From: Chelatococcus sp. HY11
Lineage (GTDB): Bacteria > Pseudomonadota > Alphaproteobacteria > Rhizobiales > Beijerinckiaceae
Direction of reading: 5' to 3'
Assembly: GCF_018398335.1 (NCBI RefSeq)
Contig: NZ_JAHBRX010000001.1
Location: forward strand, 1,302,001 to 1,366,000
DNA length: 64,000 nucleotides
The notes below the pieces were generated by a model. That model was given only the letters and a program-made list of their open reading frames with translations, was not told where the DNA came from and searched no databases. Made by a program: the position numbers and the translations under genes. Positions within the stretch are counted from its first letter, which is position 1; each line of letters starts with the position of its first letter. Shown piece after piece: positions 13,205 to 62,270 of the stretch.

Positions 13205-14509
13205 ATGATCAAATACACGATCGACGTTATTAATGAAGCGGGAGCGGAGCAAGCGCTGCTGGACCTTGTCCTGGCTGACTTTGCGACGGCATTTCAGGCT
13301 TGGTCGTCCGTCTTGACGGCGAATATTACTCTCAGCGTCAGGTTCGAGATATTGAATCAGACGATCAGTGGAAGATTTCAGGGCGGCCCAGCCTCTACTT
13401 TGAATATCGGCAAGAAAGATGGATTGACGGTCTGGGAAGGTGCCGCCTCCTACGAACTGAGAACCGGTCTTAATTCGGGCAAGGAATATGACATCCTGGT
13501 GCAGGCCAATATAAACCATCTCCGGGACGCAGTTTATTTCGGAAGCAACATAGAGCCGGATAAGGTAAGCGCGGTATCCACCATTGTCCACGAGCTGGGG
13601 CATGGCATCGGCTTCGTCGGCTGGCGCGACGACACCACAGGCCTTCTTCCCGGAGACTACCAGTCTCCTTTCGACTCCCATATCATCATGAAAGATGACC
13701 TTCCGTATTTTGATGGTGTGAATGCCATCAAGGCCTATGGAGGGCTTGTGCCGCTGACCCAGGGGAATCTTTTCCACCTCGGAAACTCTGCGCCGAAGCC
13801 AGGAGCGGACTTGGTTGACGACCTGATGAATGGCGTCGTCTTCAAATTTGCAACTGACTACCCGATCAGTGACCTTGATCTAGCGATCTTGGCTGACCTC
13901 GGTATTGGGACACGCAATTCCGACATTCTCGCCGCACCTCTGTCCGGGCAAATGCTCAATGCGGGAGCAGGATTTGACACCATCACCTTTGACGCGGGAA
14001 GCGTCGATTACACGTTCTCGTACATTGAAGACACTCTCGCAGTCAGCGGGCAAAGCGCGCCCTATAGCGCGACTATCGCGGGTGCTGAGCGGATTACTTT
14101 CACAGATCGCATTTTGGCGCTCGATATCGACGGACATGCGGGACAATCTTATCGCATCTACAAAGCCGCGCTGGATCGTTCGCCCGATGCGGCTGGCCTG
14201 ACATTCTGGACGGCCGCGATGGACGATGGGATGAGCCTGACCGATTTGGCTTATTCGTTTGTTTCATCCCCCGAGTTTGTTGCCCGCTACGGTCAAAAAC
14301 CAACCAACGAACGCTATGTTCAGCTTCTTTATGAAAATATACTCGGTCGCCAGACGGACGAGGCAGGGTATGATTTTTGGGTCGGAGCTATGGATGACGG
14401 ACTAACTATGGAAGATCTCCTTCTCGGCTTCTCGGAGAGCTTGGAAGGCAAGGCTGTTGTCATTGGCGAGATCTCAAACGGCATCTGGCTGAATGCTCAA
14501 ATCGCTTGA
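13205..14509 (+). CDS. Putative secreted metalloprotease with C-terminal DUF4214 domain
   Basis: The 434-aa protein has no N-terminal signal peptide. HELGHGIGF at 129-137 gives a zinc-binding HExxH (His129, Glu130, His133); the third ligand of the metzincin HExxHxxGxxH motif is not at the standard place (Gly139). Residues from about 265 to 305 are beta-rich with GAGFDTITFD, a lone RTX-like strand. Residues about 310-415 contain DUF4214-type units (RIYKAALDRSPDAAGLTFW, then ILGRQTDEAGYDFW). DUF4214 is common in proteins exported by type I secretion. The large 50-kb protein shares this domain, so the secretion system at 58-62 kb is the obvious exporter (inference). The ATG at 13205 has GGGGA upstream. 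IS66 is inserted six bases beyond the stop without damage. Confidence 0.8.
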   Translation: MIKYTIDVINEAGAEQALLDLVLADFATAFQAWSSVLTANITLSVRFEILNQTISGRFQGGPASTLNIGKKDGLTVWEGAASYELRTGLNSGKEYDILVQANINHLRDAVYFGSNIEPDKVSAVSTIVHELGHGIGFVGWRDDTTGLLPGDYQSPFDSHIIMKDDLPYFDGVNAIKAYGGLVPLTQGNLFHLGNSAPKPGADLVDDLMNGVVFKFATDYPISDLDLAILADLGIGTRNSDILAAPLSGQMLNAGAGFDTITFDAGSVDYTFSYIEDTLAVSGQSAPYSATIAGAERITFTDRILALDIDGHAGQSYRIYKAALDRSPDAAGLTFWTAAMDDGMSLTDLAYSFVSSPEFVARYGQKPTNERYVQLLYENILGRQTDEAGYDFWVGAMDDGLTMEDLLLGFSESLEGKAVVIGEISNGIWLNAQIA

Positions 14510-47518: not shown

Positions 47519-49066
47519 TCAGGCTGCGATGGCGAACTCGTGCGGCAAAACCCCTATGAGGCTGAGCGTCGAACCGTCCTCGAATGTCCAGGTTACAAAA
47601 CTGAGGGCATCGCCCGTATGCACGTCCGGCGTCAGATCGTATAATACGACGTCTTTTCCAGACAGCGCCAACTCGAAATCGGCGTTCTTCTCCTTGAAGG
47701 TCGCCATGACGCTCTTATAGTCGTCCGCATTATCGTGGAAAGCATGGAGGGGACGATCGTCTCCAAACAGGGCCTCGATCTTCGCCGCCAAGCCGCTGGC
47801 CTGATCCTTGCCCGCTTGCCCAGATTGAATGGTCGAGCCATTCTCAGGGAGCACATCGGCGACCAACACCAGCCCGTCATCACTGCTCGTCAAAGAAGCC
47901 AGCAAGCCGTCACCGACTTTCAGGATTTCCCGGGCATCCACCGACGCCAGCACGCTGCTCTCGACATAGCGCACCGCCTCGACGACCGGCAGTGACGAAG
48001 ACCGCTCCGAGGAAGACTGGCTGAGTACCACCGTCACGACTTCCGCGTTTTCGGCTTTATGCTCGGGCGTCGCCGCTCGCTCATGTCCGGCCAACGGTTC
48101 CCGATCCGTCTCGGCGGGCGCCGAAGAGCCATTGTTGCTCGCCTCCTGGCGATAGGTGCTGAGATCTTCGACAACCGCAACTGCGCCCGGCAATTCCACA
48201 CCAGAAGCGCCGGCCTTATCTGTCGGTTGCGCGCCACTCATGAGGCTTGTCAACAAGCTGAGCAGGGAAAGCTTGTCGCCGAACAATGCCGCCAATTGTT
48301 CGAGATGTCCGCCATCCAGAGGCAGAATGCTGACATGTTCCACACGTGCCGCGGCGCTTTCCGCCGACGTGTCCACCAGATTAGCAAACTCGACGAGGTC
48401 GCTTGTCAACTTGTGCGCCTCTGCCACGCTCGAGGCCGTACTATCCTGATCCAGCCAATCGGAGGCCTTGCTCAGCCAATGGGTCCAGTCGCCATTGAAG
48501 TCGTGGGTCACCGCGAATGTCATGGCAGCCAGAACGACGGCGACATGGCGACGGTCGAGCTGGATGCTCGCCTGCTTCACATCCCCGTCAGACTTGATCC
48601 AGATCTCCCGTGAGGAGCTCCCATCCGTGCCTTTCCCATCCACTTCACTTGCCTGGGCATCGACGTCCGACAGCTTGAAGAATGCGGTGGCGACGAGCGC
48701 GACGAGCAAGGAACTCGGATGCAGCCGGATATTATCGCGCGCCTGCGGCATGACGAGCGGATGACGGCTCAGAAGCGCCTCGACGACCGAGCGGAAATCC
48801 CGTCCGCGCAGCACACCGTCGAAGGCGCCGCTGGCTGCTACATAGGCCCCATCGATGCGGGCGAAGTGAATGATGACGTCACCACTCTCCGAATTACAGA
48901 AGACGAACCAAGGCTCGTTCTCATCGGTTATGCCGCGATCTGTGTCGACCAGAAGTCCCGCCTGCACGAGCGAGGCTTCCACGCGGTAGAATTCCGCGAG
49001 CTCCTGGTTGCTCCAGTCGTTCGAACGGCGACGGAATGAGAAAAGCTGGGCGACGTTGGATGCCAT
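47519..49066 (-). CDS. Unknown 515-aa protein linked to the surface-protein locus
   Basis: The N-terminal 110 residues form a compact region with ELAEFYRVEASLVQAGLLV, NEPWFVFCNSESGDVIIHFARIDG (core WFVFCNSESGD) and GRDFRSVVEALL. A hydrophobic stretch (LLVALVATAFFKLSD) and another around residue 180 (HVAVVLAAMTFAV) suggest membrane association. The C-terminal half is acidic and low-complexity. The ATG at 49066 has GGGAT upstream. It lies downstream of the XRE regulator gene, divergent from the large surface protein. I do not recognise the family; roles in sensing or export control are guesses. Confidence 0.55.
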   Translation of the reverse strand: MASNVAQLFSFRRRSNDWSNQELAEFYRVEASLVQAGLLVDTDRGITDENEPWFVFCNSESGDVIIHFARIDGAYVAASGAFDGVLRGRDFRSVVEALLSRHPLVMPQARDNIRLHPSSLLVALVATAFFKLSDVDAQASEVDGKGTDGSSSREIWIKSDGDVKQASIQLDRRHVAVVLAAMTFAVTHDFNGDWTHWLSKASDWLDQDSTASSVAEAHKLTSDLVEFANLVDTSAESAAARVEHVSILPLDGGHLEQLAALFGDKLSLLSLLTSLMSGAQPTDKAGASGVELPGAVAVVEDLSTYRQEASNNGSSAPAETDREPLAGHERAATPEHKAENAEVVTVVLSQSSSERSSSLPVVEAVRYVESSVLASVDAREILKVGDGLLASLTSSDDGLVLVADVLPENGSTIQSGQAGKDQASGLAAKIEALFGDDRPLHAFHDNADDYKSVMATFKEKNADFELALSGKDVVLYDLTPDVHTGDALSFVTWTFEDGSTLSLIGVLPHEFAIAA

Positions 49067-49159
49067 ACCGATCCCAAGACAAATGCGCGCGGCGGAAGAG
49101 CCGAACAAGCCCCGACAAACAAGAGGATAGGACCTGGGCAAGGGTGCCCAGGGAGCCCA

Positions 49160-49459
49160 TCAGGCGTCTTCGAAAAGAATCTCGTAGGTGGCGGGGTCAT
49201 AAAATTTGAGGATCTGCCGGACGAACTCCTTCGGCTCCATCTGCAGGGCCTCGGCCCATACGCGATAACGATCCGGCGGAATGCGCCCGCGACCGGTCTC
49301 CAGCTGGGAGATGAAGGTGTAATAATCCGTGCCGACAAGCGTAGAGAGATCACGCTGCGAGAGATTACAAGCCTCTCGCCGCTGCTTCAGCCAGCGACCA
49401 GCCGCGCGGCGGAGCTCCTGCACGTCATTGGCGCTACGCCTTTGCGGATTTCCATACAT
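49160..49459 (-). CDS. XRE-family helix-turn-helix regulator
   Basis: The 99-aa protein has a Cro/C1-type HTH: WLKQRREACNLSQRDLSTLVG then YYTFISQLETGRGRIPPDRY, followed by a short tail (LQMEPKEFVRQIL). It likely binds DNA as a dimer. The ATG at 49459 was chosen; a TTG at 49471 is an alternative. It is divergent from the large DUF4214 gene and in tandem with the 515-aa protein, so it is a candidate regulator of the surface-protein module. Confidence 0.85.
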   Translation of the reverse strand: MYGNPQRRSANDVQELRRAAGRWLKQRREACNLSQRDLSTLVGTDYYTFISQLETGRGRIPPDRYRVWAEALQMEPKEFVRQILKFYDPATYEILFEDA

Positions 49460-49952
49460 TAGATTTCCCAAACATCAGCTCAGCAAGTGATCACTGCTTT
49501 TACAGTGTAAGTCTTTGCTGCATCCAGATCAAGAAGATTACCCTGGTCCAGAGGTTTCGTCGCGGCATGGACGATCACGCCATCGGAGCCGGCGACTTGA
49601 CCTTCATGCTCGCCGCAAAAACGGCAGGCCGGCTGACCTAATCCACCGAGAATAGCCGTCACCGTACCGCGCCGTCAGCCATGAAAAGCATATGCGCGGG
49701 CACCCATAACTTCCCGTTCACCATCTATTTCAGAAGGCCAGCGCTTTTTGATGTCGCTTAACACGACATCTTACCCCGCTGATTTGCCTCACTTTTCCTC
49801 GATTGCACCTCCTTTAAGCACGCAAACGGCGCTTAAGCTCTGCATATAAAAGACATTTACAGCAGTATGGTAATCACTGTATAGCCTTTTGCAGGCTGCG
49901 CTGACGATTCTGGCAGCGGTTGGCTTATCGCCTTTTTGATCAAGAGGTTAGC
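49460..49952. promoter_or_regulatory. Control region of the large surface-protein gene
   Basis: Nearly 500 bases between the divergent XRE gene and the large surface-protein gene. TTAAGC and GCTTAA form a small inverted repeat around 49815-49835, and TATAAA at about 49845 could be a -10-like element. A strong AGAGG ribosome site lies before the ATG at 49953. A 60-codon open frame at 49480-49662 (minus) is not convincing. Confidence 0.4.
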
Positions 49953-52900
49953 ATGACAATTCCTGCTGATATCGTCATTCAGCGCTACGAGGGGATCCTC
50001 CGGTCCACTCCCTCCGAGGCACAGGTTGCCGCGTATTCGGACAGCCCCAGCGTCGAAGCTCTCGACAATGCTCTTCTGGCTGCCGCGACTGTCACCGTTG
50101 ATCCGGTTGTCCGCCTCTACCAGGCCGTCTTCGGCCGCGTGCCGGATTCCGATGGCCTGAACTTCTGGGTCGCCGCCTATGACGGTGGCCAGGGCATGTC
50201 CCTTCCCGAACTCGCCAGCGCCTTCGGCGATTCCGGCGAATTCGAGTCGCAGTATGGTGGCCTGACCAACTCCGAGATCGTCGGTCGTCTTTACGCCAAC
50301 GTTCTCGGTCGTCCGGGCGACGCCGCCGGCATCGCCTTCTGGACGGAAGTCCTGAACAACGGCGGCACGCTCGCCGAAGTCATCGTCGGCTTCTCCCAGT
50401 CGCCGGAATTCATCCAGTCGACTGAGCCTTATATCGAGGGCTTCCTCCTGGCCGCCGCTGATGGCGAAGGCATCTACACCGGCTCGCTGTTCGACGTTCT
50501 CACGACGGTCTACGACCTGACCGTCCAGGCTGACCACATTGTCGGCACGGGCAGCGACGAGATCTTTTCCGCGCCACTCAAGACCGGCCTTGATGGGCTC
50601 TTCGCGACACAGACGCTCCAGGGCGTTGACGTGCTCGACGGCGGTGATGGCCACGACATTCTCAGGGCTGAGCTGAATGGCTTCACCGGCATCGGTGGCT
50701 CTGACGACCCGTCCATCAAGAACATCGAAGAGTTCCAGCTCACGTCACGTGACAACGACGCCGAACTCGACATGACCCGTGTCGAAGGCGTGGAAGAAGT
50801 CCGCAACGTCAATTCGACGCGTGACCTGGATGTCTACGAGATCCAGAACTCGGTACTTCTCGGCCTCGACAACGTGTCCGGCAACACGACGTTCTATGCG
50901 TCGTATGCGGCTGACGCGCTCGGCAGCGACAAGGCCTCTCAGGTCGTCGAGATCAACAGCGTCGGCAAGGACGTGAACAATCGCACCGAGCTGCACGTGC
51001 ACGCGAACGGCGATGACGTCATCACCGATCTCGCGCTGACCGTCACCGGCGACAACTACCTGCAGATCAACTACGGGCTGCACGGCACCGTCGAGAACCT
51101 CACCATCGACGGTGACGGCGATCTCAACGTGCGCGGCAACTGGTTCCAGCAGCAGTGGGATAGCCTGAAGACGCTCGACGCGAGCACCATGTCAGGCGAC
51201 CTCGACATCGACCTGCGTGGTTCTGAAGTGCTCGAGAGCGTCGAGACCGGCTCAGGCGATGACCGCGTTGTCGTGAATGGCGCGAACTTCGACGGCGCTG
51301 ACATCCTCATCGACCTCGGCGCTGGCGACAACGAGTTCGCTCTTGCCAAGGTCTATGACGACGGCGACGTCAACGCGCTCGACTTCACCGGCACGACGCT
51401 GGTGGGCTTCGACGGCAACCTCGAGTTCGTCGACGACATCAGCCTCGGCGGCAACGCCACGCTCGACCTCGACGGCATCGGCGACCAGGTCACGACCCTC
51501 GACTTCACGTACGTCGACGGCAATGGCAACTGGCTCACGCTGGCGAACACGCTCGATGTCCTGACCATCGACTCCGAGTTCGGCATCGAGGATCTCAGGC
51601 TTGACGCGGGCAACGTCACTGAGCTGACCGTCAAGTCCTTCGATGGCACCATCGACCTCGACTCTCTCGCCGGCGCTGCTCTGACGACCCTCAAGGTCGA
51701 GACGTCGGATCTTATCGACGGTAACGTCTGGATCGACGTGGACGGCGCTGACGACGTCGCGGCTCTTCAGAACGTCGATGTGGCCGCTGCTGCCAACGCC
51801 GCGGTCGAGTTCGATGCATCGGCTCCGATGGATGACCTCGACGCCCTGAAGAACGTCAATGTCGTCGCGGGCGGCAACGCCTACGTCGAATTCGAAGGTG
51901 TTGCTGGCGTTCCGTACGATGCCGGTACGCAGGAAGTTGCAACTTTCACCGTTAACGTAGTTGCGCAGAGCGTCGGAGCTGGATTTGGCCAGACAACTCA
52001 GACCGCCGGTCAGATTGTCTTGTCGAGCCAGGGCTTCCCTGGCGGCTCGATCATCGTGCCGTACGCGACGTCGTTTGCTTACCCCTTCGGCATCGGTATT
52101 GGTCCGAACAACCCGCTGCACGATCAGGGCGTTGCCCAGGATATCGTGGACTATCTCAACACCAACCTCAGCTCCCTTCTGACCGCTACTCGGAACGGAT
52201 CGGACGTTGAGATCGTGTGGAACGACGTCGGTGACCAAGGCGCTATCACCAGCTTCCCGCTGGCGGTTACGCTTGGCACCTGGACCAATCCGGTCATCAA
52301 CACAGTTGATGGTACGCCGGAGATCCCGCTGGTGCTGCCGCAAGGCTTCGACAGCCTTGAGGTTGTCAATGTCGAAGGTGGCCAGGATGCTGACGCGCAT
52401 CTCCACGATGTGGTGGGTTCGTTCACATTCACGGCCACCGCTGGTGAAGACTCGGACGTCCAGTTCATCAACACCGGTGTCGTGACTGCGTCGATCGTCG
52501 CCGGCCTTGACGCTGATGTGGACGTTTACGGCAGCACATCGGCGAACGTCGACCTGGTGTCGCTGACCGTCTCCGCCGGCAATAACGCCGACGTCTATCT
52601 GGCGGATGGCCTTACCAGCTTCACGACGCTCGATGTGTCCAAGGTTGCGGCCAACCTCATCGTCGACGCCTCGGATGCGCTCTACGGTGCGACCGCCGTT
52701 GAGTATCACCTCGGCGCAACCGACTTCGTGACCTTCACGGCCGAAGACGGCTATGCTACCCGCGAAGTCTTCACGTTCGACGGAGCCGGCATCGGCGACA
52801 TCACGATTGACTTCTTCGAAGGCGGCAACACGGCCACGTCCGACCGCATCGATCTGTCGGTCTTCGGCGTCACCAGCGCCGGTCAACTGTCCTTTGTGAA

Positions 52901-53018
52901 CGACGGCGTCGATCTGCACATCACGTCGATCACCGGAGCCTTCGCTGGCGAGATCACCCTCGTCGGCCTCGGCGCGGATGCGAACGACGTGTCGCAGTTC
53001 AACATCATTTACGCCTAA
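49953..53018 (+). CDS. Large DUF4214 surface protein, S-layer-like type I secretion substrate
   Basis: The 1021-aa protein has no signal peptide and no cysteine. Residues about 50-155 contain DUF4214 units (LYQAVFGRVPDSDGLNFW, then LYANVLGRPGDAAGIAFW). After a linker come long beta-strand repeats rich in Asp, Asn, Thr and Val, with a lone RTX-like LDGGDGHDILRAEL and a block at 655-790 of different style. The C-terminus (DVSQFNIIYA) is hydrophobic and uncleaved as in type I secretion substrates. Only about ten lysines occur in the whole chain. Adjacent SapC, the methyltransferase and the ABC/HlyD exporter point to a major surface-layer protein, comparable to Caulobacter RsaA (inference). Confidence 0.82.
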   Translation: MTIPADIVIQRYEGILRSTPSEAQVAAYSDSPSVEALDNALLAAATVTVDPVVRLYQAVFGRVPDSDGLNFWVAAYDGGQGMSLPELASAFGDSGEFESQYGGLTNSEIVGRLYANVLGRPGDAAGIAFWTEVLNNGGTLAEVIVGFSQSPEFIQSTEPYIEGFLLAAADGEGIYTGSLFDVLTTVYDLTVQADHIVGTGSDEIFSAPLKTGLDGLFATQTLQGVDVLDGGDGHDILRAELNGFTGIGGSDDPSIKNIEEFQLTSRDNDAELDMTRVEGVEEVRNVNSTRDLDVYEIQNSVLLGLDNVSGNTTFYASYAADALGSDKASQVVEINSVGKDVNNRTELHVHANGDDVITDLALTVTGDNYLQINYGLHGTVENLTIDGDGDLNVRGNWFQQQWDSLKTLDASTMSGDLDIDLRGSEVLESVETGSGDDRVVVNGANFDGADILIDLGAGDNEFALAKVYDDGDVNALDFTGTTLVGFDGNLEFVDDISLGGNATLDLDGIGDQVTTLDFTYVDGNGNWLTLANTLDVLTIDSEFGIEDLRLDAGNVTELTVKSFDGTIDLDSLAGAALTTLKVETSDLIDGNVWIDVDGADDVAALQNVDVAAAANAAVEFDASAPMDDLDALKNVNVVAGGNAYVEFEGVAGVPYDAGTQEVATFTVNVVAQSVGAGFGQTTQTAGQIVLSSQGFPGGSIIVPYATSFAYPFGIGIGPNNPLHDQGVAQDIVDYLNTNLSSLLTATRNGSDVEIVWNDVGDQGAITSFPLAVTLGTWTNPVINTVDGTPEIPLVLPQGFDSLEVVNVEGGQDADAHLHDVVGSFTFTATAGEDSDVQFINTGVVTASIVAGLDADVDVYGSTSANVDLVSLTVSAGNNADVYLADGLTSFTTLDVSKVAANLIVDASDALYGATAVEYHLGATDFVTFTAEDGYATREVFTFDGAGIGDITIDFFEGGNTATSDRIDLSVFGVTSAGQLSFVNDGVDLHITSITGAFAGEITLVGLGADANDVSQFNIIYA

Positions 53019-53048
53019 GCCTTGCAGGCCTATATAGCGTGAGTAGGG

Positions 53049-53074
53049 AACGGGGGGCGGTTACGCCCCCCGTT
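53049..53074 (+). terminator. GC-rich hairpin between the large surface-protein gene and sapC
   Basis: AACGGGGGGCG, loop GTTA and CGCCCCCCGTT form a perfect 11-bp stem starting 30 bases after the stop of the large gene, followed by CTTGCTT. With no strong T-run it may only partly stop transcription, giving high surface-protein and lower SapC output. Confidence 0.65.
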
Positions 53075-53092
53075 CTTGCTTGGGAGAGAACC

Positions 53093-53881
53093 ATGTTCAA
53101 GACGCAGATTCCCCTGACTTTCGCGCAGCACCGCGATCTGCGGGTCTTTGAGAGCAACGATTACGGCTACGCGAAAGCTGAGACGCTCGCGCCGATTGTT
53201 TTCGATGAAATGAGCGACGTTGCTCGCGAATATCCGATTATCTTTCCCGACAACAACAGCGAAATGCCCGCCGCCCTGCTCGGCCTCGAGCCCGGCAAGA
53301 ACGCGTATGTTGCCGACGACGGCCGCTGGTTGGCCACCTATATTCCCGCCCATATCCGCCGTTATCCTTTCGTGTTTGGCGCAACGCCACAAGAAGAAGG
53401 CTCGGAAAAGCGCTTTATCGTCATGTTTGATCCCGACGCGCCGCATCTGAAGAACCCGAGTGGCCATCCTGTCTTCACGTCGGACGGTCAATTAACACCA
53501 CATATGCAGCGCCGCCTCCAGCTTCTGGAGCACGTGCAGAAGAAGATTGCCGCCACCCGGGCCATGGTCGCAGCTATTGCCGAAAGCGGTCTTCTCGTGG
53601 ACCGAAGCATTGTCCTTCGCAAACCCGATGGCTCAGGCCATAAGATAAAAGGACTGCGTGTCGTCAACGAGCAGAAGCTCAATCAGCTTTCCGACGCCGA
53701 TTTCAACACCCTGCGCAAAACCAATGTCCTTCCGCTGATCTACGCCCATCTCCTATCATGGGCCAATTTCCGGCAGGGACCGATCGGCGGCAAGTATCCG
53801 GATCTGGCCGCCAAGGCCGGCGGCAACAATGCGCCGTTCCAATTCGAGAGCGATGTCCTCGACCTTTCACATCTAAGCTAG
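53093..53881 (+). CDS. sapC: SapC-family protein
   Basis: The 262-aa protein matches the SapC family: FAQHRDLRVFESNDYGYAK, APIVFDEM..VAREYPIIFPD, W.ATYIPAHIRRYPFVFG and a C-terminal helical region (YAHLLSWANF). SapC was described with Campylobacter fetus S-layer proteins; the biochemical role is unclear. The ATG at 53093 has GGGAGAG upstream. It lies 75 bases downstream of the large surface-protein gene, whose hairpin separates them, and is followed by a strong terminator. Confidence 0.9.
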   Translation: MFKTQIPLTFAQHRDLRVFESNDYGYAKAETLAPIVFDEMSDVAREYPIIFPDNNSEMPAALLGLEPGKNAYVADDGRWLATYIPAHIRRYPFVFGATPQEEGSEKRFIVMFDPDAPHLKNPSGHPVFTSDGQLTPHMQRRLQLLEHVQKKIAATRAMVAAIAESGLLVDRSIVLRKPDGSGHKIKGLRVVNEQKLNQLSDADFNTLRKTNVLPLIYAHLLSWANFRQGPIGGKYPDLAAKAGGNNAPFQFESDVLDLSHLS

Positions 53882-53930
53882 GCGTGTCCCGCCCCCCTTC
53901 TCGTAACAGCCATCTGTGCTCCCGCGTTCG

Positions 53931-53960
53931 CCCTGGCCTTTCCACAGGCCGGGGTTTTTT
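53931..53960 (+). terminator. Rho-independent terminator after sapC
   Basis: CCCTGGCC, loop TTTCCACA, GGCCGGGG (one T-G pair) and a run of six T close the sapC transcript. Confidence 0.9.
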
Positions 53961-54061
53961 CATATCGACCGAGCCAAGAGCCTTTCTTTCCCTCATCGCT
54001 TGCATTGCAAGCGCCGCTGATCACAAATCACCGGGCAAGATAAGAGGGCGGGGAGTGACGC

Positions 54062-55585
54062 ATGGCGGATTGGAGTGATGGCTACGTCACGGAAGTCGGC
54101 TACACGCATGGCTTCTATCGGGAGCTTGTCCCGCTCAGCCTGCAACTCGCGGCATTGACCGCCGGCGTCAAGCCACCGTCCGGGCGGCTGCGCTATCTCG
54201 AACTCGGCTGCGGCCAGGGCATGTCGGCCAATATCATCGCCGCCGCCAATCCCGACGTCTCGGTCACCGCCATTGATTTCAACCCCGCCCATATCGCGGG
54301 TGCCTGCGACCTGGCGCGGCTCGCGCGCAGCGAGCGCATAGACCTGCGCGAGGCCAGCTTCGCGGATCTGGCGGCAGACCCCGATCTCGGCGATTTCGAC
54401 ATCATCGCGCTCCACGGAATCTACAGCTGGGTCTCGGCGGAGAACCGCGCTTACATTCGCGAGATCGCGCGCAAGCACCTCAAGACCGGCGGCCTGCTTT
54501 ACGTCTCCTACAATGCCCTGCCCGGCTGGGCAGCTGCGGCGCCCCTTCGCCGCCTTCTCATAGACACGGCGGCCCAGCAATCCGGCCCGTTGTTCGATCG
54601 GATTGAAGCGAGCCTTGCCTTCGCGAAGCGGCTGGAAACCGTCCAGGCCCGCTATTTCACCCAGTCCCCCACGGTCGGCAGCCGGCTCGAGGGGCTCGGC
54701 AAGCAACAGAGGGCCTATATCGCGCACGAATATCTCAATGCCGATTGGACGCCGTTCTACTGCACGGACGTGCGCCGTGACTTCGAGGGCGCCAAGTTGA
54801 GCTATGTCGGCCAGGTGCAGCTCTCCGATCAGGTCGATGTCATCAATTTCACCGAGCAGCAGCGGGCGCTTCTCGCCGAGATCAAGGACCCGGCTTTTCG
54901 CGACCTCGCCGGCGACATGATGTTGAATCGCCCGTTCCGCCGCGATCTCTTCGTGCGCGGTCGCCTGCCCCTGGAAGGCGCGCAGCTCTTCGAGGCCTGG
55001 GCCGGCCTGCGCTTCGTGCTGGCGACCGCCCCGCAGGCCGTTTCGCGTTCCATCACCACCCCGGTCGGCACGATCGGCTTGCAGCAGAAGATCTACGATC
55101 CGCTGGTCGACGCTCTCGCCGAACGTCCCAAGACCGTGCGGGAGCTCCTGAACACGCCGTCACTCTCCGCCATCGGCTGGCAACGGATACACCAGGCCTT
55201 GCTGATCCTCATCGGCCAAGGCGGGGTGAGCCCGGCGCTCCCGCTGGAAGGCGAGGAAGCCCGCGCTGTCGGCACTGCCCATTTCAACGATGCCGTCCTC
55301 AATGCCGCACGGCATAGCGGACAGTTGTCATATCTCGCCTCACCCGTCACAGGCGGCGCCGTCGCCGTCGACCGCATCAGCCAGCTCGCGCTGCTGGCCC
55401 GCCGCCAAAAAGCCGAAGACCTGGTCAGCTTCATCTGGTCGGTCTTCGCCGCGCAAGGCCAACGCCTCATGAAGGACGGCGCGCCCCTGCAGGATGAAGC
55501 CGCCAACCGCGCCGAAATCGAGGCCCGCTTGACGACCTTCCATGGGGAGCTATCGCCGACCCTAACACGTCTGCGTGTTGCTTGA
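54062..55585 (+). CDS. Methyltransferase with regulatory domain, PKMT-like
   Basis: The 507-aa protein has a class I methyltransferase domain: LELGCGQG at 47-53 binds SAM, AIDFNPAHI follows. A second domain from about residue 240 matches the methyltransferase regulatory domain (DWTPFYCTDVRRDFEGAKLSYVGQV, core FEGAKLSYVGQ). This architecture is that of rickettsial PKMT1/2, which methylate lysines of the surface protein OmpB (known). Next to sapC and the large surface protein it is a candidate modifier of the surface layer (inference). The ATG at 54062 opens after the sapC terminator, so it has its own promoter. Confidence 0.85.
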   Translation: MADWSDGYVTEVGYTHGFYRELVPLSLQLAALTAGVKPPSGRLRYLELGCGQGMSANIIAAANPDVSVTAIDFNPAHIAGACDLARLARSERIDLREASFADLAADPDLGDFDIIALHGIYSWVSAENRAYIREIARKHLKTGGLLYVSYNALPGWAAAAPLRRLLIDTAAQQSGPLFDRIEASLAFAKRLETVQARYFTQSPTVGSRLEGLGKQQRAYIAHEYLNADWTPFYCTDVRRDFEGAKLSYVGQVQLSDQVDVINFTEQQRALLAEIKDPAFRDLAGDMMLNRPFRRDLFVRGRLPLEGAQLFEAWAGLRFVLATAPQAVSRSITTPVGTIGLQQKIYDPLVDALAERPKTVRELLNTPSLSAIGWQRIHQALLILIGQGGVSPALPLEGEEARAVGTAHFNDAVLNAARHSGQLSYLASPVTGGAVAVDRISQLALLARRQKAEDLVSFIWSVFAAQGQRLMKDGAPLQDEAANRAEIEARLTTFHGELSPTLTRLRVA

Positions 55586-55775
55586 CAGCGACCGACCCAC
55601 CCCAACAACAAGCGTTCGGGTGAATGCGAGATACGGCCATTCAATATATCACAGATTTAATGCATCCACAGAATGCAGCATCTTTTGCACAATAACGATA
55701 TGACACTCCTAACGCATTCAATTAAAAGAAATTTATTAAAATCTATTGATATATTAATTTGATTTGAGGTTTTCT

Positions 55776-57707
55776 GTGAGCGATATTGCTGTGAATAGCG
55801 CGCCCGGTATCAACGGCGCCACAATCGCGACTGACACGGCTCAGGCGGCGGTGAAGGAATATGCGATCGAGGTGAAGCAGTGGCAGCTGTATGAACAGCT
55901 CAAGCTCACCATCGGCAGCCATGTATTCTCGGCATCCAGCGTTGTCGAAGGCTTTCGCCTCGACGCGCCCGGCGGCCCGCAGTGCAACGGCAAAGCCTCC
56001 CTCGACCATTTCATGGCCTTCAACAAGTCCGCCATCGAGAGCCTGACGGGCGGCACGGTCTTCGTGCGCTCCGCCAAAAGCGGATCCGGCAATTTCGAGA
56101 TCGTCATTCAGGCGAAGGACGGCTCCGATCTCAAGGGCGGCGCCATCTCAGCAGCCATGGACCGCGGCAAGACCCTGCATGGGCCGGCGCATTCCGATAA
56201 TCTTACCCAGGACAGCCTTGTCGCCGTGCGCGCCGACGACGTCCTGATGCCGGCGTCTGCTGATCGCGCCGAAGGCACGGCCCAGGCCACGATTGATGTC
56301 GGTGCCTGGAACGCGCGTGATACGCTGCACATTACGATCGGCGCGCACAGCTTCTCGGCCGGTGCGGCCGCGAATCCCGCCACGTCTCTCGAACAGTTCG
56401 TCGCGACAAACGGGCATGCCATTCACGCTCTCACTGGCGGCACTCTCGTCGTCGAAAACGGCGATCTCGTCATCAAGGGCACAAATGCGCTGAGGGGCGG
56501 CGCCATTTCCGCCTATATGGAAACAGGCGATCTCCTTTCCGCAACAAAGCCGTTCATCGCGTTGCGGGCCACGCAGGGCACGGGCGGCCCCGCAAGTGCC
56601 GCCTACGAGACGCCTGCCGTCGCCCCTACCTCCAGCGAATATCGCGTCACGATAGGCCCGTGGAAGGAGCACCAGCAGTTGCAGCTCACCATAGGTGAGC
56701 ACGTTTACTCGGCCTACGGCGTGTTCGGGATCGACACGGACCGTTCGCTCGCAAAATTCCTGGAAATCAACAAAGCGCCGATAGAGGTGCTGACAGGCGG
56801 CCAAGTCTCTGCCCAAGGGAATACTCTCGTCATCACCAGCGCCACAGGCCTGAAGGGCGGCCAGATTTCGGCGCATATGGACGAGTGGAACGGCACCCCG
56901 ATCAACATTACCAAGATCCCCTATCAGGCTTCCACATCTGGAAACGGCACCGACGGCAATGGCGGCACCGGTACGGGCGGCACTGACGGCAATAGCGGCA
57001 CAGGCACGGGCGACACCGACGGAAACGGCGGCACCGGCATAGGCGGCACCGACGGCAATGGCGGCACAGGCACGGGCGGCACCGACGGCAATAGTGGCAC
57101 AGGCACGGGCGACACCGACGGAAACGGCGGCACCGGCATAGGCGGCACCGACGGCAATGGCGGCACCGGCACGGGCGGCACCGACGGAAACGGCGGCACC
57201 GGCACGGGCGGCACCGACGGCAATGGCGGCACCGGCACGAGCGGCACCGACGGCAATGGCGGCGCAGGCACGGGCGGCACCGACGGCACGGAAATCGATG
57301 GCAATGGCGGAGGCATCGTCGCCGTCGAGACGATGAAATACGTCGTCCATGGCGGCGGTTTCAACGCGGACGGTGAGGTCCAAGGAACAATCGAGGGACT
57401 GAACCTCGGCACCCAGAACGCCAAAGGCCGGATGGATACGATCGACTTCGCCTTCGACATCGATCTCGTCGCCAATACCTCGCGGGTCCAGGCCATTGCG
57501 GGCGCCAGCCTTAAGGAGGCCGTTGACCGCCTGTTCAAGGCCGGTGGCGAGCTGGACGGCAGCCATCACACCGCTGGCTTGTTCGGCTACGGCAAGGATG
57601 TGTACCTCGTTGCCGCCAATGAGGTCGGTGCGGCATTTGGTGCCGACGACGTGATCATCAAGGTCACGGGCTACACCGGGGTCATCGATCAGTCGGACTT
57701 CGCCTGA
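55776..57707 (+). CDS. Three-repeat surface protein with Gly-rich linker, probable type I secretion substrate
   Basis: The 643-aa product starts at a GTG with TTGAGG upstream. It has three repeats of about 120 residues, each with a QLKLTIGSHVFSA-like strand, LTGG and GGAISA. A 110-residue Gly/Thr/Asp linker of ten 11-residue units (GNGGTGTGGTD) follows. The C-terminal 130 residues contain VVHGGGFN and end in DVIIKVTGYTGVIDQSDFA, resembling the secretion end of type I substrates of the bluetail/RsaA style. No signal peptide or cysteine-rich part. It is upstream of the ABC/HlyD genes and is likely their substrate. Confidence 0.75.
   Translation: MSDIAVNSAPGINGATIATDTAQAAVKEYAIEVKQWQLYEQLKLTIGSHVFSASSVVEGFRLDAPGGPQCNGKASLDHFMAFNKSAIESLTGGTVFVRSAKSGSGNFEIVIQAKDGSDLKGGAISAAMDRGKTLHGPAHSDNLTQDSLVAVRADDVLMPASADRAEGTAQATIDVGAWNARDTLHITIGAHSFSAGAAANPATSLEQFVATNGHAIHALTGGTLVVENGDLVIKGTNALRGGAISAYMETGDLLSATKPFIALRATQGTGGPASAAYETPAVAPTSSEYRVTIGPWKEHQQLQLTIGEHVYSAYGVFGIDTDRSLAKFLEINKAPIEVLTGGQVSAQGNTLVITSATGLKGGQISAHMDEWNGTPINITKIPYQASTSGNGTDGNGGTGTGGTDGNSGTGTGDTDGNGGTGIGGTDGNGGTGTGGTDGNSGTGTGDTDGNGGTGIGGTDGNGGTGTGGTDGNGGTGTGGTDGNGGTGTSGTDGNGGAGTGGTDGTEIDGNGGGIVAVETMKYVVHGGGFNADGEVQGTIEGLNLGTQNAKGRMDTIDFAFDIDLVANTSRVQAIAGASLKEAVDRLFKAGGELDGSHHTAGLFGYGKDVYLVAANEVGAAFGADDVIIKVTGYTGVIDQSDFA
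56955..57284 (+). repeat. 33-bp minisatellite, ten copies, in the surface-protein gene
   Basis: Units such as GGCAATGGCGGCACCGG-CACGGGCGGCACCGAC (hyphen added) recur ten times in frame. Copies 2-4 and 5-7 are nearly the same three-unit block, showing a 99-bp higher-order duplication. It encodes the Gly-rich linker and could vary in length. Confidence 0.95.
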
Positions 57708-57759
57708 CGTCAGACGCTGGGGCTGGCCTGGGGTTTTTCTGATCGTGAGCGCATCCAGG

Positions 57760-57787
57760 AAGGCGGCGGAGAATGCTCCGCCGCCTT
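57760..57787 (+). terminator. Perfect 12-bp hairpin after the three-repeat protein gene
   Basis: AAGGCGGCGGAG, loop AATG, CTCCGCCGCCTT lies 53 bases past the stop. It lacks a T-run and may reduce rather than end transcription into the ABC gene. Confidence 0.65.
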
Positions 57788-57908
57788 CACGCACTGCCTC
57801 ACATCAGCGGGGCCTGTTGTGGTAATTGCCTCCATAAGTTGGATTGGTACGATATACAGTTCTTATGAAACCCCGTATGATGTTCAGACGGGATTGGAGC
57901 GTAGATTG

Positions 57909-59717
57909 ATGTCACAGGCGGGGATGATGGTTGGGGGGAAGAAGGCGCCGACGGCCTTGAACGCGGCGATCCGCGCGACGCGTCCGGCCTTTGTGACGGC
58001 GATCATTTTTTCGTTTTTCATCAATCTTCTGGGACTGACGGGTTCGTTGTACATGATGCAGGTCTATGACCGCGTCCTGTCGAGCCGGAACCTGACGACG
58101 CTAGTTGTTCTGACGATCCTGATCGCGATTTTGTATCTTGTCTCGGCGTCGCTGGAGAGCCTGCGGACGCGGCTTCTGGTGCGGGCCGGGGTGCGGTTTG
58201 ACGAGGAGGTGAACGCGGATGCGTTCAACGCGGTGCAGCGCGCCTCGCTGCGCCAGCCCGGGCCTGGCCATGTCCAGGCCCTGCGCGACGTCGACAGCAT
58301 CCGGGAGTTTTTCACGGGCCAGGGGCTGATCACCTTCTGCGACGTGCCGTGGGTGCCGATCTACATCATCGCGGCGACGCTGCTGCATCCCTGGTACGGG
58401 GTCCTGGCGATCATCACGGCCCTGATCTCGGCGGCGCTGGCCTTCGCCAACGACCGGGCGACACGGCCGGTGCTGGACCAGGCGACGAAGGCCAACATCA
58501 CGGCGCAGAACCAGGCGCTGACCACCTTCCGCAACGCGGAGGTGCTGCAGGCGATGGGGATGGTGGGGCGGCTGCGCGAGAAGTGGGTGAAGCACCACTA
58601 CGACGCGCTCGGCCACCAGGCGCAGGCCTCGGACCGCGCCGGCGGGCTGATGGCCGGCATCAAGTTCAACCGCGCCTTCATGCAGAGCCTGATCCTGGGG
58701 GTCGGGGCCTATCTGGCGATCAAGCGGGAGATCTCGCCGGGCATGATGATCGCGGCGTCGATCATCGTGGGGCGCTGCGTGCAGCCGATCGAGATGGCGA
58801 TCAGCAACTGGAAGTCGCTGATCAACATGCGCTCGGCCTATGAGCGCGTGCAGGGCCTTTTGCGGGCGCTGCCGGCGCCGGGGGCGCGCATGCGCCTGCC
58901 CGACCCGAAGGGCGACATCTCGGTCGAAAACCTGATCGTGCGGGTGCCGACGCGGGACATGCCGGTGCTGAAGGGCATCTCCTTCGCGGTCAATGCCGGC
59001 ACGGTGCTGGGTGTGATCGGGCCGAGCGCTGCGGGCAAGTCGAGCCTGGCGCGAGCGCTTGTCGGGGTGTGGCCGGCGGCGGCGGGCTGCGTGCGGCTCG
59101 ACGGGTCGGACCTGAGCCATTGGGATCCCGAACAGCTCGGGCGTTTCCTCGGCTATCTGCCACAGGACGTCGAGCTGTTTTCCGGCTCGATCGCCGAGAA
59201 CATCGCGCGCTTCGGCGACATGGACGAGGCGGGGATCGTGGGGGCGGCGCAGCTGGCGGGCGTGCATGAGATGATCCAGCGGCTGCCGGACGGCTACAAC
59301 ACGCAGATCGGCGAAGGCGGGCAGGCGCTGTCGGGCGGCCAGCGCCAGCGGGTCGGCCTGGCGCGGGCGCTTTACGGGTCGCCGCCGATCCTGGTGCTGG
59401 ACGAGCCGAACGCGAGCCTGGACGCGGCCGGCGAACAGGCGCTGATGACGGCGATCCGCCAGCTGAAGGCGGCCGGACGCACGGTCATCCTGATCAGCCA
59501 CAAGACCAATTCACTGGCCTTGTGCGATTCCATCCTGGTGCTGGCGGAAGGTGGCGTGCAGGCCTTCGGGCCGCGCGACGAGGTGCTGGCCAAGGTGCTC
59601 GGGCCGCGCATCGTCGGGCCGCAGGGCGCTGGCCAGGGGGCGGGATCGGTGACGGCGGGATCGGTGACGGCCACCCCGGGCCAGCCCGGCATCGCCGCGG
59701 CGGCCGCGCCAGGTTGA
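57909..59717 (+). CDS. Type I secretion ABC permease/ATPase, PrtD/RsaD family
   Basis: The 602-aa fused protein has an N-terminal membrane domain with about six helices (SFFINLLGLTGSLYMMQVYDRVLSSRN, core LYMMQVYDRVL) and a C-terminal ATPase. Walker A is GPSAAGKSS at 371-379, signature LSGGQRQR near 474, Walker B ILVLDEPNASLD, and H-loop ISHK. It lacks the peptidase-like N-domain of HlyB, as in PrtD/RsaD. It powers export of unfolded proteins across both membranes with the HlyD-family partner. An Ala/Gly/Pro tail ends the protein. The ATG at 57909 has GGAG 11 bases upstream. Confidence 0.93.
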   Translation: MSQAGMMVGGKKAPTALNAAIRATRPAFVTAIIFSFFINLLGLTGSLYMMQVYDRVLSSRNLTTLVVLTILIAILYLVSASLESLRTRLLVRAGVRFDEEVNADAFNAVQRASLRQPGPGHVQALRDVDSIREFFTGQGLITFCDVPWVPIYIIAATLLHPWYGVLAIITALISAALAFANDRATRPVLDQATKANITAQNQALTTFRNAEVLQAMGMVGRLREKWVKHHYDALGHQAQASDRAGGLMAGIKFNRAFMQSLILGVGAYLAIKREISPGMMIAASIIVGRCVQPIEMAISNWKSLINMRSAYERVQGLLRALPAPGARMRLPDPKGDISVENLIVRVPTRDMPVLKGISFAVNAGTVLGVIGPSAAGKSSLARALVGVWPAAAGCVRLDGSDLSHWDPEQLGRFLGYLPQDVELFSGSIAENIARFGDMDEAGIVGAAQLAGVHEMIQRLPDGYNTQIGEGGQALSGGQRQRVGLARALYGSPPILVLDEPNASLDAAGEQALMTAIRQLKAAGRTVILISHKTNSLALCDSILVLAEGGVQAFGPRDEVLAKVLGPRIVGPQGAGQGAGSVTAGSVTATPGQPGIAAAAAPG

Positions 59718-59983
59718 GCCAAGGCCTGCTGAGCCAAGGCCTGGCCAAGGTCTGCTGAGACGACAGAGCGGCGATACCGCGCCGAGGCCGAAAGCCGGCC
59801 GCGGATGCCCGCGACTAACATCGATGTGATCGGCGCCGGCGGGCTTCCTCTGGCAAGCGGCGGCGCCGGTGTCTATGTGATCGCTGTCCCGGCCGCCATC
59901 GTGGTCCGTACAGCTGTGGTTCCTGTGGTTTCTCCGGCGCTGTCTGCCGGCCGGAGCCTGTGTGTGACGCTGGAGCGTGGTTG

Positions 59984-62050
59984 ATGTCCGAGCAGAAGAT
60001 CCCCCCGGTGAATGCCCAGCCGGTCAATGCCCAGACGGGGCAGGCTCAGAATCAGCCCAGCGCAGGTCAACCCGCCGCAGGTCAACCTTCGCGGCCCCTG
60101 GCGGCGCCCGCCCCCGGCGGCGTCCCGGCCGGCGCCGACAGCGAGGGCGCCCGCTTTCCACGGCCGCTGACCTTCGGCAAGCCCATTCCGCCAAACCAGC
60201 CTGCTCCTGCAAACCAGCCTGCTTTTGCAAACCAGCCCGCTTTTTCAAGCCAGCCCGCGACAGGCCAGTCCGCCATGAGCCAGCCCGGCATGAGCCAGCC
60301 CGGCATGAACCAGCCCGGCATGAGCCGGCCGGCCCCTCCCCTGGCGGCCGGCACGGCGCAACCCGCCGCCAGCCTGGCGGCAGCCGCCGCGTCGGAAGGG
60401 GGGCTGGCCAGGGGTCCGGAGACAACGGGTTCCGAGACAAATGGCCCCGGCGCCAGCGGCCCGGTGCCCTTCGCCGCCATCACGCCGGTGAAGGTGCCGG
60501 CGCATGAGGCCATCCAAGGTAATCCTGGCCAAGGTAATCCTGGGCAAGGCAATTTTGGGCAAGGCAATTTTGGGCAAGGCAACCCCGGGCACGGCGGCGC
60601 CGGCGCGCTCGCCAACGCCCAGCCGGACAAGGCCGGGCGCAAGCTGCCCTTTCTCGAAAAGGCCATCGATGCCGCCCTCAGCCTGGGCAAGAGCAAGCGC
60701 GGCACCACGAACGGCGACGGCGCTCCGGGCAACGACGGCACCGGTTCCCCGGGCAAGCCCGACAGTGACTTCCGCCGCATCGCCCTGACCGGCTATGCCA
60801 TCATCGTCTTCACCTTCGGCATCATGGGCGGCTGGGCGGCGCTCGCCAATATCGACGCCGGCGTCGTGGCGCCGGGCCTCATCTCCGTGGAGAGCAAGCG
60901 CCAGGTCGTGCAGCACCTGGAAGGCGGCATCATCAAGGAGATCAAGGTCCGCGAAGGCCAGAAGGTCGAGGTCGGCGATCTCCTGTTCCGCCTCGAGGAC
61001 ACCACCGCGCTCGCCAACCGCGACGCCGTCCGCAACCAGGTCTATGCGGCCCTGGCGCTCGAGGCCCGCCTCGTCGCCGAGCGCGACGACGCCCCGAGGA
61101 TCACCTTCCCCGCCCTCCTCGTCGATCATCCCGACGACCCGGTGGTCAAGCGCGTCATCGGCGACGAGACCGCCCAGTTCAACGACCGCCGCGCCTCCAT
61201 CACCGGCCAGATCAACATCATCAACGGCCGCGTCGACCAGCTCAAGGCCGAGATCGACGGTCTCGACCGCGAGCGCAAGTCCGCCGAGCAGCAGCTCTAC
61301 TTCATCAACGACGAGCTCGTCGGCATCCGCGACCTCGCCCTCAAGGGCCTCGTCCCGAAGTCCCGCCAGTCGGCGCTGGAGCGCGAGAAGGCCCGCCTCG
61401 ACGGCGTCGTCGGCCGCAATCTCGCCGATGCCGCCAAGGCCCAGAACAATATCGGCGAGATGAACCTGCAGGCGACCCAGACCCGCCAGAAATTCATCGA
61501 GGAGGTCGGCGCCCAGCTCCTCGACATCCGCCAGAAGCTCGGCGACATGCGCGAGAAGCTCAATGTCACCGAGGACGTCCTGCGCCGCACCGAAATCCGC
61601 GCGCCGCGCGGCGGCGAGGCCCAGAACATCAATCAGCGCGTCTTCACCGTCGGCGCCGTCGTGCGCCCCGGCGACACCCTCGTCGAGATCGTCCCCCAGG
61701 ACGACGAGCTCGTCATCGAGGCCCGCGTCCAGGTCACCGACATCGACAACCTCAGGACCGAGACCTCGACGGAAGTCCGCTTCCCCGCCTTCCACTCGCG
61801 CACCACGCCGCTCATCCTCGGCACCCTGCGCAACGTCTCCCGCGACCGCCTCGTCGACGAGCAGACCCGCGAGCCCTACTACCTCGCCCTCATCTCCGTC
61901 GCCGACACCGATGTCCCCGCCGAGCTCAAGGGACGCCTCAGACCCGGAATGCCCGCCGAAATCATCTTCAACACCGGCGAAAGAACCGTCATGAGCTACC
62001 TCATGAGACCCCTCACAGACGCCATGACCGGCGCCTTCAGGGAACACTGA
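59984..62050 (+). CDS. HlyD-family type I secretion adaptor with long N-terminal extension
   Basis: The 688-aa membrane-fusion protein has a single N-terminal-type helix at about residues 266-288 (GYAIIVFTFGIMGGWAAL), then the PrtE/HlyD barrel, coiled-coil and barrel (QHLEGGIIKEI, IRAPRGGEAQN, VSRDRLVDEQTREPYYLA). The 260 residues before the helix are Pro/Gln/Gly-rich with tandem repeats (PANQPAF, QPGMS, GNPGQ). Usual family members have only a short tail there. It bridges the ABC protein to a TolC-like channel, which is not in the window. The ATG at 59984 has GGAG upstream, similar to that of the ABC gene. Confidence 0.92.
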   Translation: MSEQKIPPVNAQPVNAQTGQAQNQPSAGQPAAGQPSRPLAAPAPGGVPAGADSEGARFPRPLTFGKPIPPNQPAPANQPAFANQPAFSSQPATGQSAMSQPGMSQPGMNQPGMSRPAPPLAAGTAQPAASLAAAAASEGGLARGPETTGSETNGPGASGPVPFAAITPVKVPAHEAIQGNPGQGNPGQGNFGQGNFGQGNPGHGGAGALANAQPDKAGRKLPFLEKAIDAALSLGKSKRGTTNGDGAPGNDGTGSPGKPDSDFRRIALTGYAIIVFTFGIMGGWAALANIDAGVVAPGLISVESKRQVVQHLEGGIIKEIKVREGQKVEVGDLLFRLEDTTALANRDAVRNQVYAALALEARLVAERDDAPRITFPALLVDHPDDPVVKRVIGDETAQFNDRRASITGQINIINGRVDQLKAEIDGLDRERKSAEQQLYFINDELVGIRDLALKGLVPKSRQSALEREKARLDGVVGRNLADAAKAQNNIGEMNLQATQTRQKFIEEVGAQLLDIRQKLGDMREKLNVTEDVLRRTEIRAPRGGEAQNINQRVFTVGAVVRPGDTLVEIVPQDDELVIEARVQVTDIDNLRTETSTEVRFPAFHSRTTPLILGTLRNVSRDRLVDEQTREPYYLALISVADTDVPAELKGRLRPGMPAEIIFNTGERTVMSYLMRPLTDAMTGAFREH
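60190..60590 (+). repeat. Short tandem repeats in the adaptor's extension
   Basis: Three families are visible: an 18-base unit encoding PANQPA-type hexapeptides (about 60193-60255), a 15-base unit CAGCCCGGCATGAGC (about 60283-60325), and a 15-base unit encoding GNPGQ/GNFGQ (about 60521-60590). Confidence 0.85.
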
Positions 62051-62270
62051 CCGCAGCCAGGAAGATGGCGCGGAACGGTTGATCCGGCGCCGCGACGTCC
62101 TCCCAAACGATCGACCACAAGACGACAGCCCCTGCCCGCGCGGCGAGGCCGCCCTCGGGTGCGTCTTGCTCTTTCCGTCATCACCTTCTCATACTATAGC
62201 TTATGCTAGACGTCTGGGTTGCACAGCAAAAGCAATCCTGACGGTCTAGTGCTGAGACGTGGGAGGAACG

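Follow-up and report, generated by a model that had tools for sequence, protein, structure and literature searches.

A Chelatococcus gene cluster for a putative RsaA-like, type I secreted surface protein, with exporter genes kept virtually identical at a second, distant locus

Gene content of the cluster

Of the 6.95-Mb genome of Chelatococcus sp. HY11 (genome code G000), we analyzed a stretch of 64,000 nucleotides (contig 1, 1302001-1366000), here called the window. It contains a cluster of eight genes (Table 1) that encodes a protein of 1021 amino acids (aa) with two DUF4214 units, a SapC family protein, a relative of outer-membrane (OM) protein lysine methyltransferases (PKMTs), a three-repeat protein and a type I exporter pair, as well as an XRE-type regulator with a 515-aa partner on the opposite strand. 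On balance, we consider it probable that the cluster serves to make, modify and export a surface protein that is RsaA-like, type I secreted and, as we propose, tethered to lipopolysaccharide (LPS), and that it does so as half of a two-locus system. New is the finding that the exporter pair is kept as virtually identical copies at two distant loci. An earlier sequence-only reading of this DNA had described the eight genes as a candidate surface-layer (S-layer) module; all eight lie where it placed them, and profile matches bear out their families.

The 1021-aa protein indeed lacks cysteine and is rich in aspartate (11.0%), its pI is 4.05, and its DUF4214 units near the N-terminus are recognized by PF13946 (E 1.7e-23, 82.9 bits at a gathering cut-off of 23.2). 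No Sec signal was seen in it by eye, no predictor having been run. The SapC assignment is based on PF07277 (E 4.9e-64, 216.4 bits, cut-off 28.9), and the methyltransferase has the two-domain architecture of OM PKMTs, as it combines a class I methyltransferase domain with PF10119 (E 6.1e-28); its best relatives of solved structure in a search of the PDB are PKMT2 (E 3.3e-21) and PKMT1 (E 2.3e-20), which we take to be the Rickettsia proteins. In the 647-aa protein, the three repeats of about 90-105 aa give pairwise scores of 128-135, compared with maxima of 47-53 in 1000 shuffles each, and the C-terminus resembles a bluetail domain at 20.4 bits, below the cut-off of 21 bits. The exporter pair consists of an ABC transporter of the PrtD subfamily (TIGR01842, 733.7 bits, cut-off 510.15) and an HlyD family adaptor (TIGR01843, 382.9 bits, cut-off 208.65), whose N-terminal extension (59984-60780) is made of low-complexity short Pro/Gln/Gly repeats and varies in length between species (about 265, 245 and 203 residues).

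The divergent XRE gene is separated from its partner gene by 18 bp if the longest reading of the partner is taken, and by 93 bp from its ATG. For the 515-aa protein, Pfam gives no match at E<=0.1 and NCBIfam none at E<=1, in line with the earlier description as an unknown; weak hydrophobic stretches begin at residues 119 and 258. PDB searches yielded one chance-level row for SapC alone, nothing credible for profiles of SapC and of the 515-aa family, and zero matches for the three-repeat protein.

Table 1. Features of the cluster, in window coordinates
Feature	Position	Strand	Remarks
515-aa protein, family-less partner of the XRE regulator	47519..49066	-	conserved N-terminal domain, variable middle, conserved C-terminal end
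XRE-type helix-turn-helix (HTH) regulator	49160..49471	-	HTH_31/HTH_3; divergent from the DUF4214 gene
Leader 5' of the DUF4214 gene	49829..49952	+	108/124 columns invariant in 4 species
Acidic 1021-aa protein without cysteine; candidate for an LPS-tethered surface protein	49953..53018	+	
Tandem DUF4214 region, residues ~43-155	50079..50417	+	possible weak relationship to the N-terminal anchor of RsaA
SapC family protein, 262 aa	53093..53881	+	PF07277
Relative of OM protein lysine methyltransferases (PKMT)	54062..55585	+	PF10119
647-aa three-repeat protein with Gly-rich spacer and bluetail-like C-terminus; probable second type I substrate	55764..57707	+	
Type I secretion ABC transporter, PrtD subfamily	57909..59717 (reading frame open from 57819)	+	TIGR01842
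HlyD family adaptor with Pro/Gln/Gly-rich N-terminal extension of ~265 residues	59984..62050	+	TIGR01843
Block 100% identical to a second copy	57890..62075	+	second copy on contig 1, 3640892-3645077, other strand

The exporter twins and the second locus

The exporter pair lies in a block that is 100% identical over 4,186 bp to its copy 2.3 Mb away. The identity begins 19 bp 5' of the ATG of the transporter gene, ends 25 bp past the stop codon of the adaptor gene and takes in the Pro/Gln/Gly-rich extension. In two other Chelatococcus genomes, the identity between the copies is 100% over 3,922 bp (G055) and 99.9% over 3,949 bp (G015; 1 mismatch and 3 gap positions). The same pair of gene settings harbors the copies in all three separate assemblies (6-7 contigs each), with no match between the flanks of one copy and those of the other. 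Between species, the main aligned pieces are 88-94% identical, with gaps. As the identity is high within genomes and lower between species, we infer gene conversion, and the simplest reading is that the twins represent an old duplication kept alike by this process. In the draft genome G087, the exporter pair is found once, on a 4,109-bp contig. Exact matches of 95 bp link one end of this contig to both C23 and C4 and the opposite end to both C5 and C7, a pattern expected from a collapsed repeat with nearly identical copies. In the 170 bp common to C5 and C7, the contigs that come after the two copies, there are 3 mismatches, so in this species the identity stops before the end of the HlyD gene.

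An assembly artefact or a very recent duplication would in principle also produce 100% identity over 4.2 kb, and we regard both as very unlikely, since the two settings with their non-matching flanks recur in separate assemblies, the pieces differ between species, and the copies in G015 and the follow-on contigs in G087 are not quite identical; a fresh duplication would moreover require separate events at the same places in each species. We see in the twins what appears to be a clear natural example of two secretion operons evolving in concert, which suggests selection for one pump sequence, for dosage, or for both.

We regard the cluster as half of a system with two loci. The second locus (contig 1, ~3.65 Mb) likewise has an XRE gene, a relative of the 515-aa protein (38% identity over the first 187 residues of the latter) and a DUF4214 protein, here of 1174 aa, which is 33% identical to the 1021-aa protein over about the first 450 residues and carries an RTX repeat (PF00353). 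G015 has a further set of an XRE gene, a 515-aa relative and a DUF4214 protein (1211 aa) on a separate 276-kb contig (L124, contig 3, 126000-145900).

Codon adaptation was determined relative to 25 genes of the ribosomal-protein region, with correction for amino-acid make-up, for 204 genes that comprise the fetched loci and the window. In G000, the gene of the 1174-aa paralogue ranks 4 and that of the 1021-aa protein 33 of 204, which makes them the first and second of the 20 DUF4214 genes of the genome; SapC ranks 172. With reference set and amino-acid means taken from G000 only, the paralogue is also ahead of the orthologue of the 1021-aa gene in G055 (1 vs 10 of 37) and G015 (5 vs 10 of 38), and the order is reversed in G087 (3 vs 1 of 34). 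In three of the four species, codon usage thereby favors the paralogue, contrary to the earlier proposal that the 1021-aa protein is the major subunit.

Leader and upstream element

The leader of the DUF4214 gene is strongly conserved, with 108 of 124 columns invariant in the four species, compared with 132 of 381 in the rest of the intergenic gap. It holds the element ATATAAAAGAC...CACTGTAT at 49844-49882, which is common to the second locus. A pattern written from both loci has exactly two matches in the genome, namely these two sites, and the reversed control has 0; as the pattern was drawn from both sites, the only news is that there is no third exact match in the genome. It occurs at both loci in G000 and G015 and is absent from the 17 other genomes searched. 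The folding of the leader RNA (z +0.91) is not unusually stable, which speaks against a specially stable leader. That in G055 and G087 the exact match is confined to the window locus weakens the case for a common element.

Conservation and co-occurrence in related genomes

The whole gene order is kept in G000, G015 and G055, and in G087 as far as the exporter, where the contig ends. The SapC in the cluster of Chelatococcus asaccharovorans DSM 6462 is 79% identical. For co-occurrence, we used 149 genomes of the family, drawn from a larger group and including the four Chelatococcus, and read 16 loci from stop to stop for gene content. DUF4214 positions are those among the matches listed, which include no places for G078, so neighbor counts that rest on them are lower bounds. 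SapC is present in 29 genomes, DUF4214 in 28, PF10119 in 32 and the 515-aa family in 12. Of the 9 genomes with both SapC and DUF4214, 8 have them no more than 10 kb apart (the four Chelatococcus, G005, G047, G082 and G091). PKMT and DUF4214 genes occur together in 12 genomes, and in at least 7 of these the distance is about 1.1 kb or less (the four Chelatococcus, where SapC lies between the two, G082, G091 and G100). Of the 12 genomes that have the 515-aa family, at least 9 encode it no farther than 10 kb from DUF4214 (the four Chelatococcus, G053, G082, G085, G091 and G113); in two of the other three, G047 and G100, it adjoins PrtD/HlyD, and the third is a weak match in G005. For the non-Chelatococcus genomes, with every domain match counted as a locus and with windows picked post hoc, the chance estimates, which are conservative, are 4.9e-5 for SapC near DUF4214 (4/5 within 10 kb), 4.7e-6 for PKMT near DUF4214 (3/8 within 1 kb) and 3.1e-5 for the 515-aa family near DUF4214 (5/8 within 10 kb). 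Against a tight linkage stand G136, in which SapC and DUF4214 are about 92 kb apart, and the 5 of 8 non-Chelatococcus genomes with both genes in which the PKMT is not beside DUF4214, in either case among the matches listed.

Among the loci fetched, the full set in the order of the window was not seen outside Chelatococcus. Nearest to it comes G082, with SapC, DUF4214, PKMT, XRE and 515-aa genes within about 7 kb and no exporter seen in the 20 kb read at this locus. As the order is kept in Chelatococcus and subsets of the genes recur in other genera, we consider the module to be real, and the conserved neighborhood proposed as a check of the sequence-only reading is thus found, in whole within Chelatococcus and in parts elsewhere. 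The DUF4214 proteins adjacent to a PKMT gene have 630, 811 and 1088 aa and, with SapC in between, 1021 aa; the first three end in bluetail-like sequence, as judged by eye. A 217-kb contig of G091 (contig 12; L080, L128) has many DUF4214 matches together with SapC, PKMT, XRE, a 515-aa relative and an exporter. In G055, a DUF4214 match related to the 1021-aa protein (L131, G055:C2:2058027-2059181) spans one internal stop and is perhaps a broken gene.

SapC also occurs in a second type of locus, in which a 329-aa DUF4214 protein is encoded near two SapC genes in all four Chelatococcus genomes, followed by a PrtD/HlyD pair in G000, G055 and G087, and in G015 according to a DNA match of the exporter. 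In G000, this locus is flanked by glycosyltransferase-2 genes and apparent dTDP-sugar synthesis genes, together with an uncharacterized 345-aa gene that is listed in G015 too; the paired SapC genes (L067 9318-11021) have codon adaptation ranks of 202 and 185 of 204. In G019, a SapC pair adjoins an RTX protein without DUF4214. What SapC follows may therefore be type I secreted proteins and not DUF4214 as such.

Relationship of the DUF4214 tandem to RsaA

Sequence comparison suggests a weak relationship of the DUF4214 tandem to the LPS anchor of RsaA, the S-layer protein of Caulobacter crescentus. A tandem DUF4214 profile built from 16 sequences scores the N-terminus of RsaA with 15.6 bits. None of 39,992 scored shuffles attains this value (maximum 12.7), and among 364 reported open reading frames without DUF4214 (from a file of 656) the top score on this profile is 11.0 bits. 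An hhalign comparison of the tandem with the RsaA N-terminus gives E 0.0052 with both repeats in register.

Several observations weigh against this kinship, or against an RsaA-like nature of the 1021-aa protein. The hhalign probability is 6.9%, the single-domain DUF4214 profile gives RsaA only 9.8 bits (a score that 13 of 29,724 scored shuffles attain as well), and the score of a profile of the four closest N-termini on RsaA is reached by 1 of 39,389 shuffles. At E<=10, the tandem profile did not list RsaA among PDB sequences; all 19 that it listed are phycobilisome proteins (best E 5.5e-6), the best scores being sums over repeats. A phmmer comparison of the whole 1021-aa protein with the PDB, which is a sequence comparison only, returned no RsaA at E<=10 and one chance-level row. 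No RTX repeat was found in the protein in Pfam at E<=0.1, and its C-terminus is without match to any named family in Pfam and NCBIfam. The RsaA N-terminus matches 7 of 385 genomes of the class, and only the match in G000 carries DUF4214; this one is a phage tape-measure gene. With one in seven, the idea that proteins matched by the RsaA N-terminus generally carry DUF4214 was rejected.

The structure prediction that had been proposed as a check was carried out for the N-terminal 220 residues only and, with two sequences, gave a poor model (mean predicted local distance difference test, pLDDT, 46.3). In a Foldseek search with this weak model, 48 of the best 50 of 189 rows at E<=10 are phycobilisome entries (best E 9.8e-3), and zero matches reach E<=0.001. 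As the SapC prediction from two sequences is poor as well (mean pLDDT 39.2), no fold claim rests on the models alone.

DUF4214 by itself tells little, given 20 such proteins in the genome. The N-terminal position in the 1021-aa protein, which the sequence-only reading had singled out, is confirmed and turns out to be ordinary: DUF4214 is N-terminal in 8 of the 17 non-phage DUF4214 proteins of the genome, and we dropped it as a remarkable trait. The other three are phage tail tape-measure proteins (PF06791 or PF20155) of about 1640 aa (L086 6465-11399; L087 2617-7575; L088 8296-13203), all with a DUF4214 match above the cut-off near the C-terminus; DUF4214 thus occurs in phage tails too. The first of them (L086) has a tail-tube gene (PF18906) nearby.

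Proposed mechanism and alternatives

How might the cluster function? The divergent XRE protein and its 515-aa partner may control the operon via the conserved leader. The PrtD/HlyD pump would export the 1021-aa protein and probably also the three-repeat protein, working together with an OM pore that is presumably encoded elsewhere. Outside the cell, the N-terminal DUF4214 tandem could tether the protein to LPS in the way of the RsaA N-terminal domain, which binds O-antigen with calcium (available part of PMC6978808). The PKMT may methylate lysines of an exported protein, and SapC could serve as accessory factor. As the exporter copies are identical, both loci would use the same pump, and repeated gene conversion would keep it so, as the identity pattern suggests. 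Two features of the proteins fit this scheme poorly: the 1021-aa protein has 10 lysines, 4 of them invariant in four species, as compared with 22 in the three-repeat protein, which makes it a poor PKMT target, and the best hydropathy window of the 515-aa protein is 1.46, below the mark of 1.6 that is usual for a membrane helix.

What alternatives exist for an RsaA-like surface protein? It is possible, though we doubt it, that the 1021-aa protein, while type I secreted, is no coat subunit and works as an adhesin or in the biofilm matrix, with the PKMT tuning its display in the manner of KmtA for the adhesin AtaA of Acinetobacter Tol 5. Where targets of OM PKMTs are known, they are surface adhesins or OM proteins (according to the available part of PMC11784438). 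The very unlike sizes of the DUF4214 proteins next to PKMT genes, the bluetail-like ends of three of them and the number of 20 DUF4214 proteins in the genome would agree with this as well. However, AtaA is a trimeric autotransporter and not a type I substrate, and the codon usage of the two main proteins leans towards the ribosomal set, as is the case for abundant proteins, which an adhesin need not be. With a similarly limited likelihood, there may be a true RsaA-like S-layer in which the 1174-aa paralogue is the main subunit and the 1021-aa protein a minor or conditional variant. The RTX repeat of the paralogue, its better codon rank in G000, G055 and G015 and the like upstream element at both loci argue for such roles, but the reversed rank order in G087 does not, and codon usage is an indirect measure, with reference and amino-acid means from G000 only.

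For the RsaA-like, type I secreted and LPS-tethered protein that we favor, the earlier view of one surface-coat system therefore needs to be divided: a conserved unit is present in four of four Chelatococcus genomes, with subsets recurring elsewhere, and the claim of a lattice subunit is not supported. The 1021-aa protein may be RsaA-like in kind, with the lattice unproven. A more far-reaching reading appears improbable to us, in which DUF4214 tandems would be a widespread LPS anchor that is related to the RsaA N-terminal domain and has the fold of phycobilisome linkers, combined with a two-component coat run from two distant loci under one kind of XRE/515-aa switch and one shared upstream element. 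It is just as speculative that gene conversion would keep the pump identical at both loci so that both coat proteins leave the cell at matched rates, and we would give equally little credit to a lysine methylation of either the 1021-aa coat protein or its three-repeat partner as part of this wider reading.

If true, the kinship to the RsaA anchor would make a role of DUF4214, a domain of unknown function, in LPS tethering directly testable. To our knowledge, SapC and OM-type PKMTs have few known partners, and the DUF4214 proteins to which they are recurrently linked are candidate substrates.

Comparison with known systems

RsaA is acidic and cysteine-free, and its exporter RsaD/RsaE is of the PrtD/HlyD type. 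The system described here resembles it in the size of the protein (1021 aa vs 1026 aa in PDB 5n8p), in the helical N-terminal module with its possible weak homology to the LPS anchor, and in the linked type I exporter of PrtD/HlyD type (TIGR01842/TIGR01843), of which the 1021-aa protein would be the cargo. It differs in that the PDB search detected no similarity over the whole protein; on the Chelatococcus side there are also the linked SapC, PKMT and XRE/515-aa genes and a second, apparently homogenized locus. The Campylobacter fetus sap locus (sapA, sapCDEF) combines a SapC family gene with a type I exporter, as seen here, and the PKMT and XRE/515-aa genes set the Chelatococcus cluster apart from it. 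With Rickettsia PKMT1/PKMT2 and Acinetobacter KmtA, the cluster methyltransferase shares the combination of methyltransferase and regulatory domain, KmtA being compared by description. Different is that it is encoded next to DUF4214 proteins and a type I exporter; the available part of PMC11784438 does not name substrates of this class. As for the phycobilisome linker domain, the tandem profile and the weak model match phycobilisome entries, but the function is unrelated and the model confidence low.

A precedent is Halo4214 of Halomonas, a DUF4214 protein of 1038 aa and thus a surface-protein candidate of like size. An alignment of 88 of its residues (S16-V104) with the Caulobacter S-layer protein has been published, and it differs by a C-terminal half that was matched to lipase; a role of DUF4214 proteins as S-layer-like anchors has been suggested there already (available part of PMC11970703). 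As this alignment came earlier, the link between DUF4214 and RsaA is not wholly new. In a literature search that covered mostly listings and few subscription papers, we saw no description of this gene combination or of the exporter twins, nothing on concerted evolution of type I secretion, and no Synechococcus S-layer parallel. A 2025 S-layer review has 0 occurrences of SapC, DUF and type I secretion (PMC12175726).

Other features of the window

A consensus scan for promoters and terminators found 2 and 12, respectively, compared with shuffle means of 2.8 and 10.9. A further DUF4214 protein is encoded at 13070-14509 (+); it has 479 aa with a C-terminal DUF4214, and its gene, which is listed twice, differs strongly in codon usage from the ribosomal set (ranks 195 and 196 of 204). 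Two tRNA genes lie at 11.3-11.8 kb of the window.

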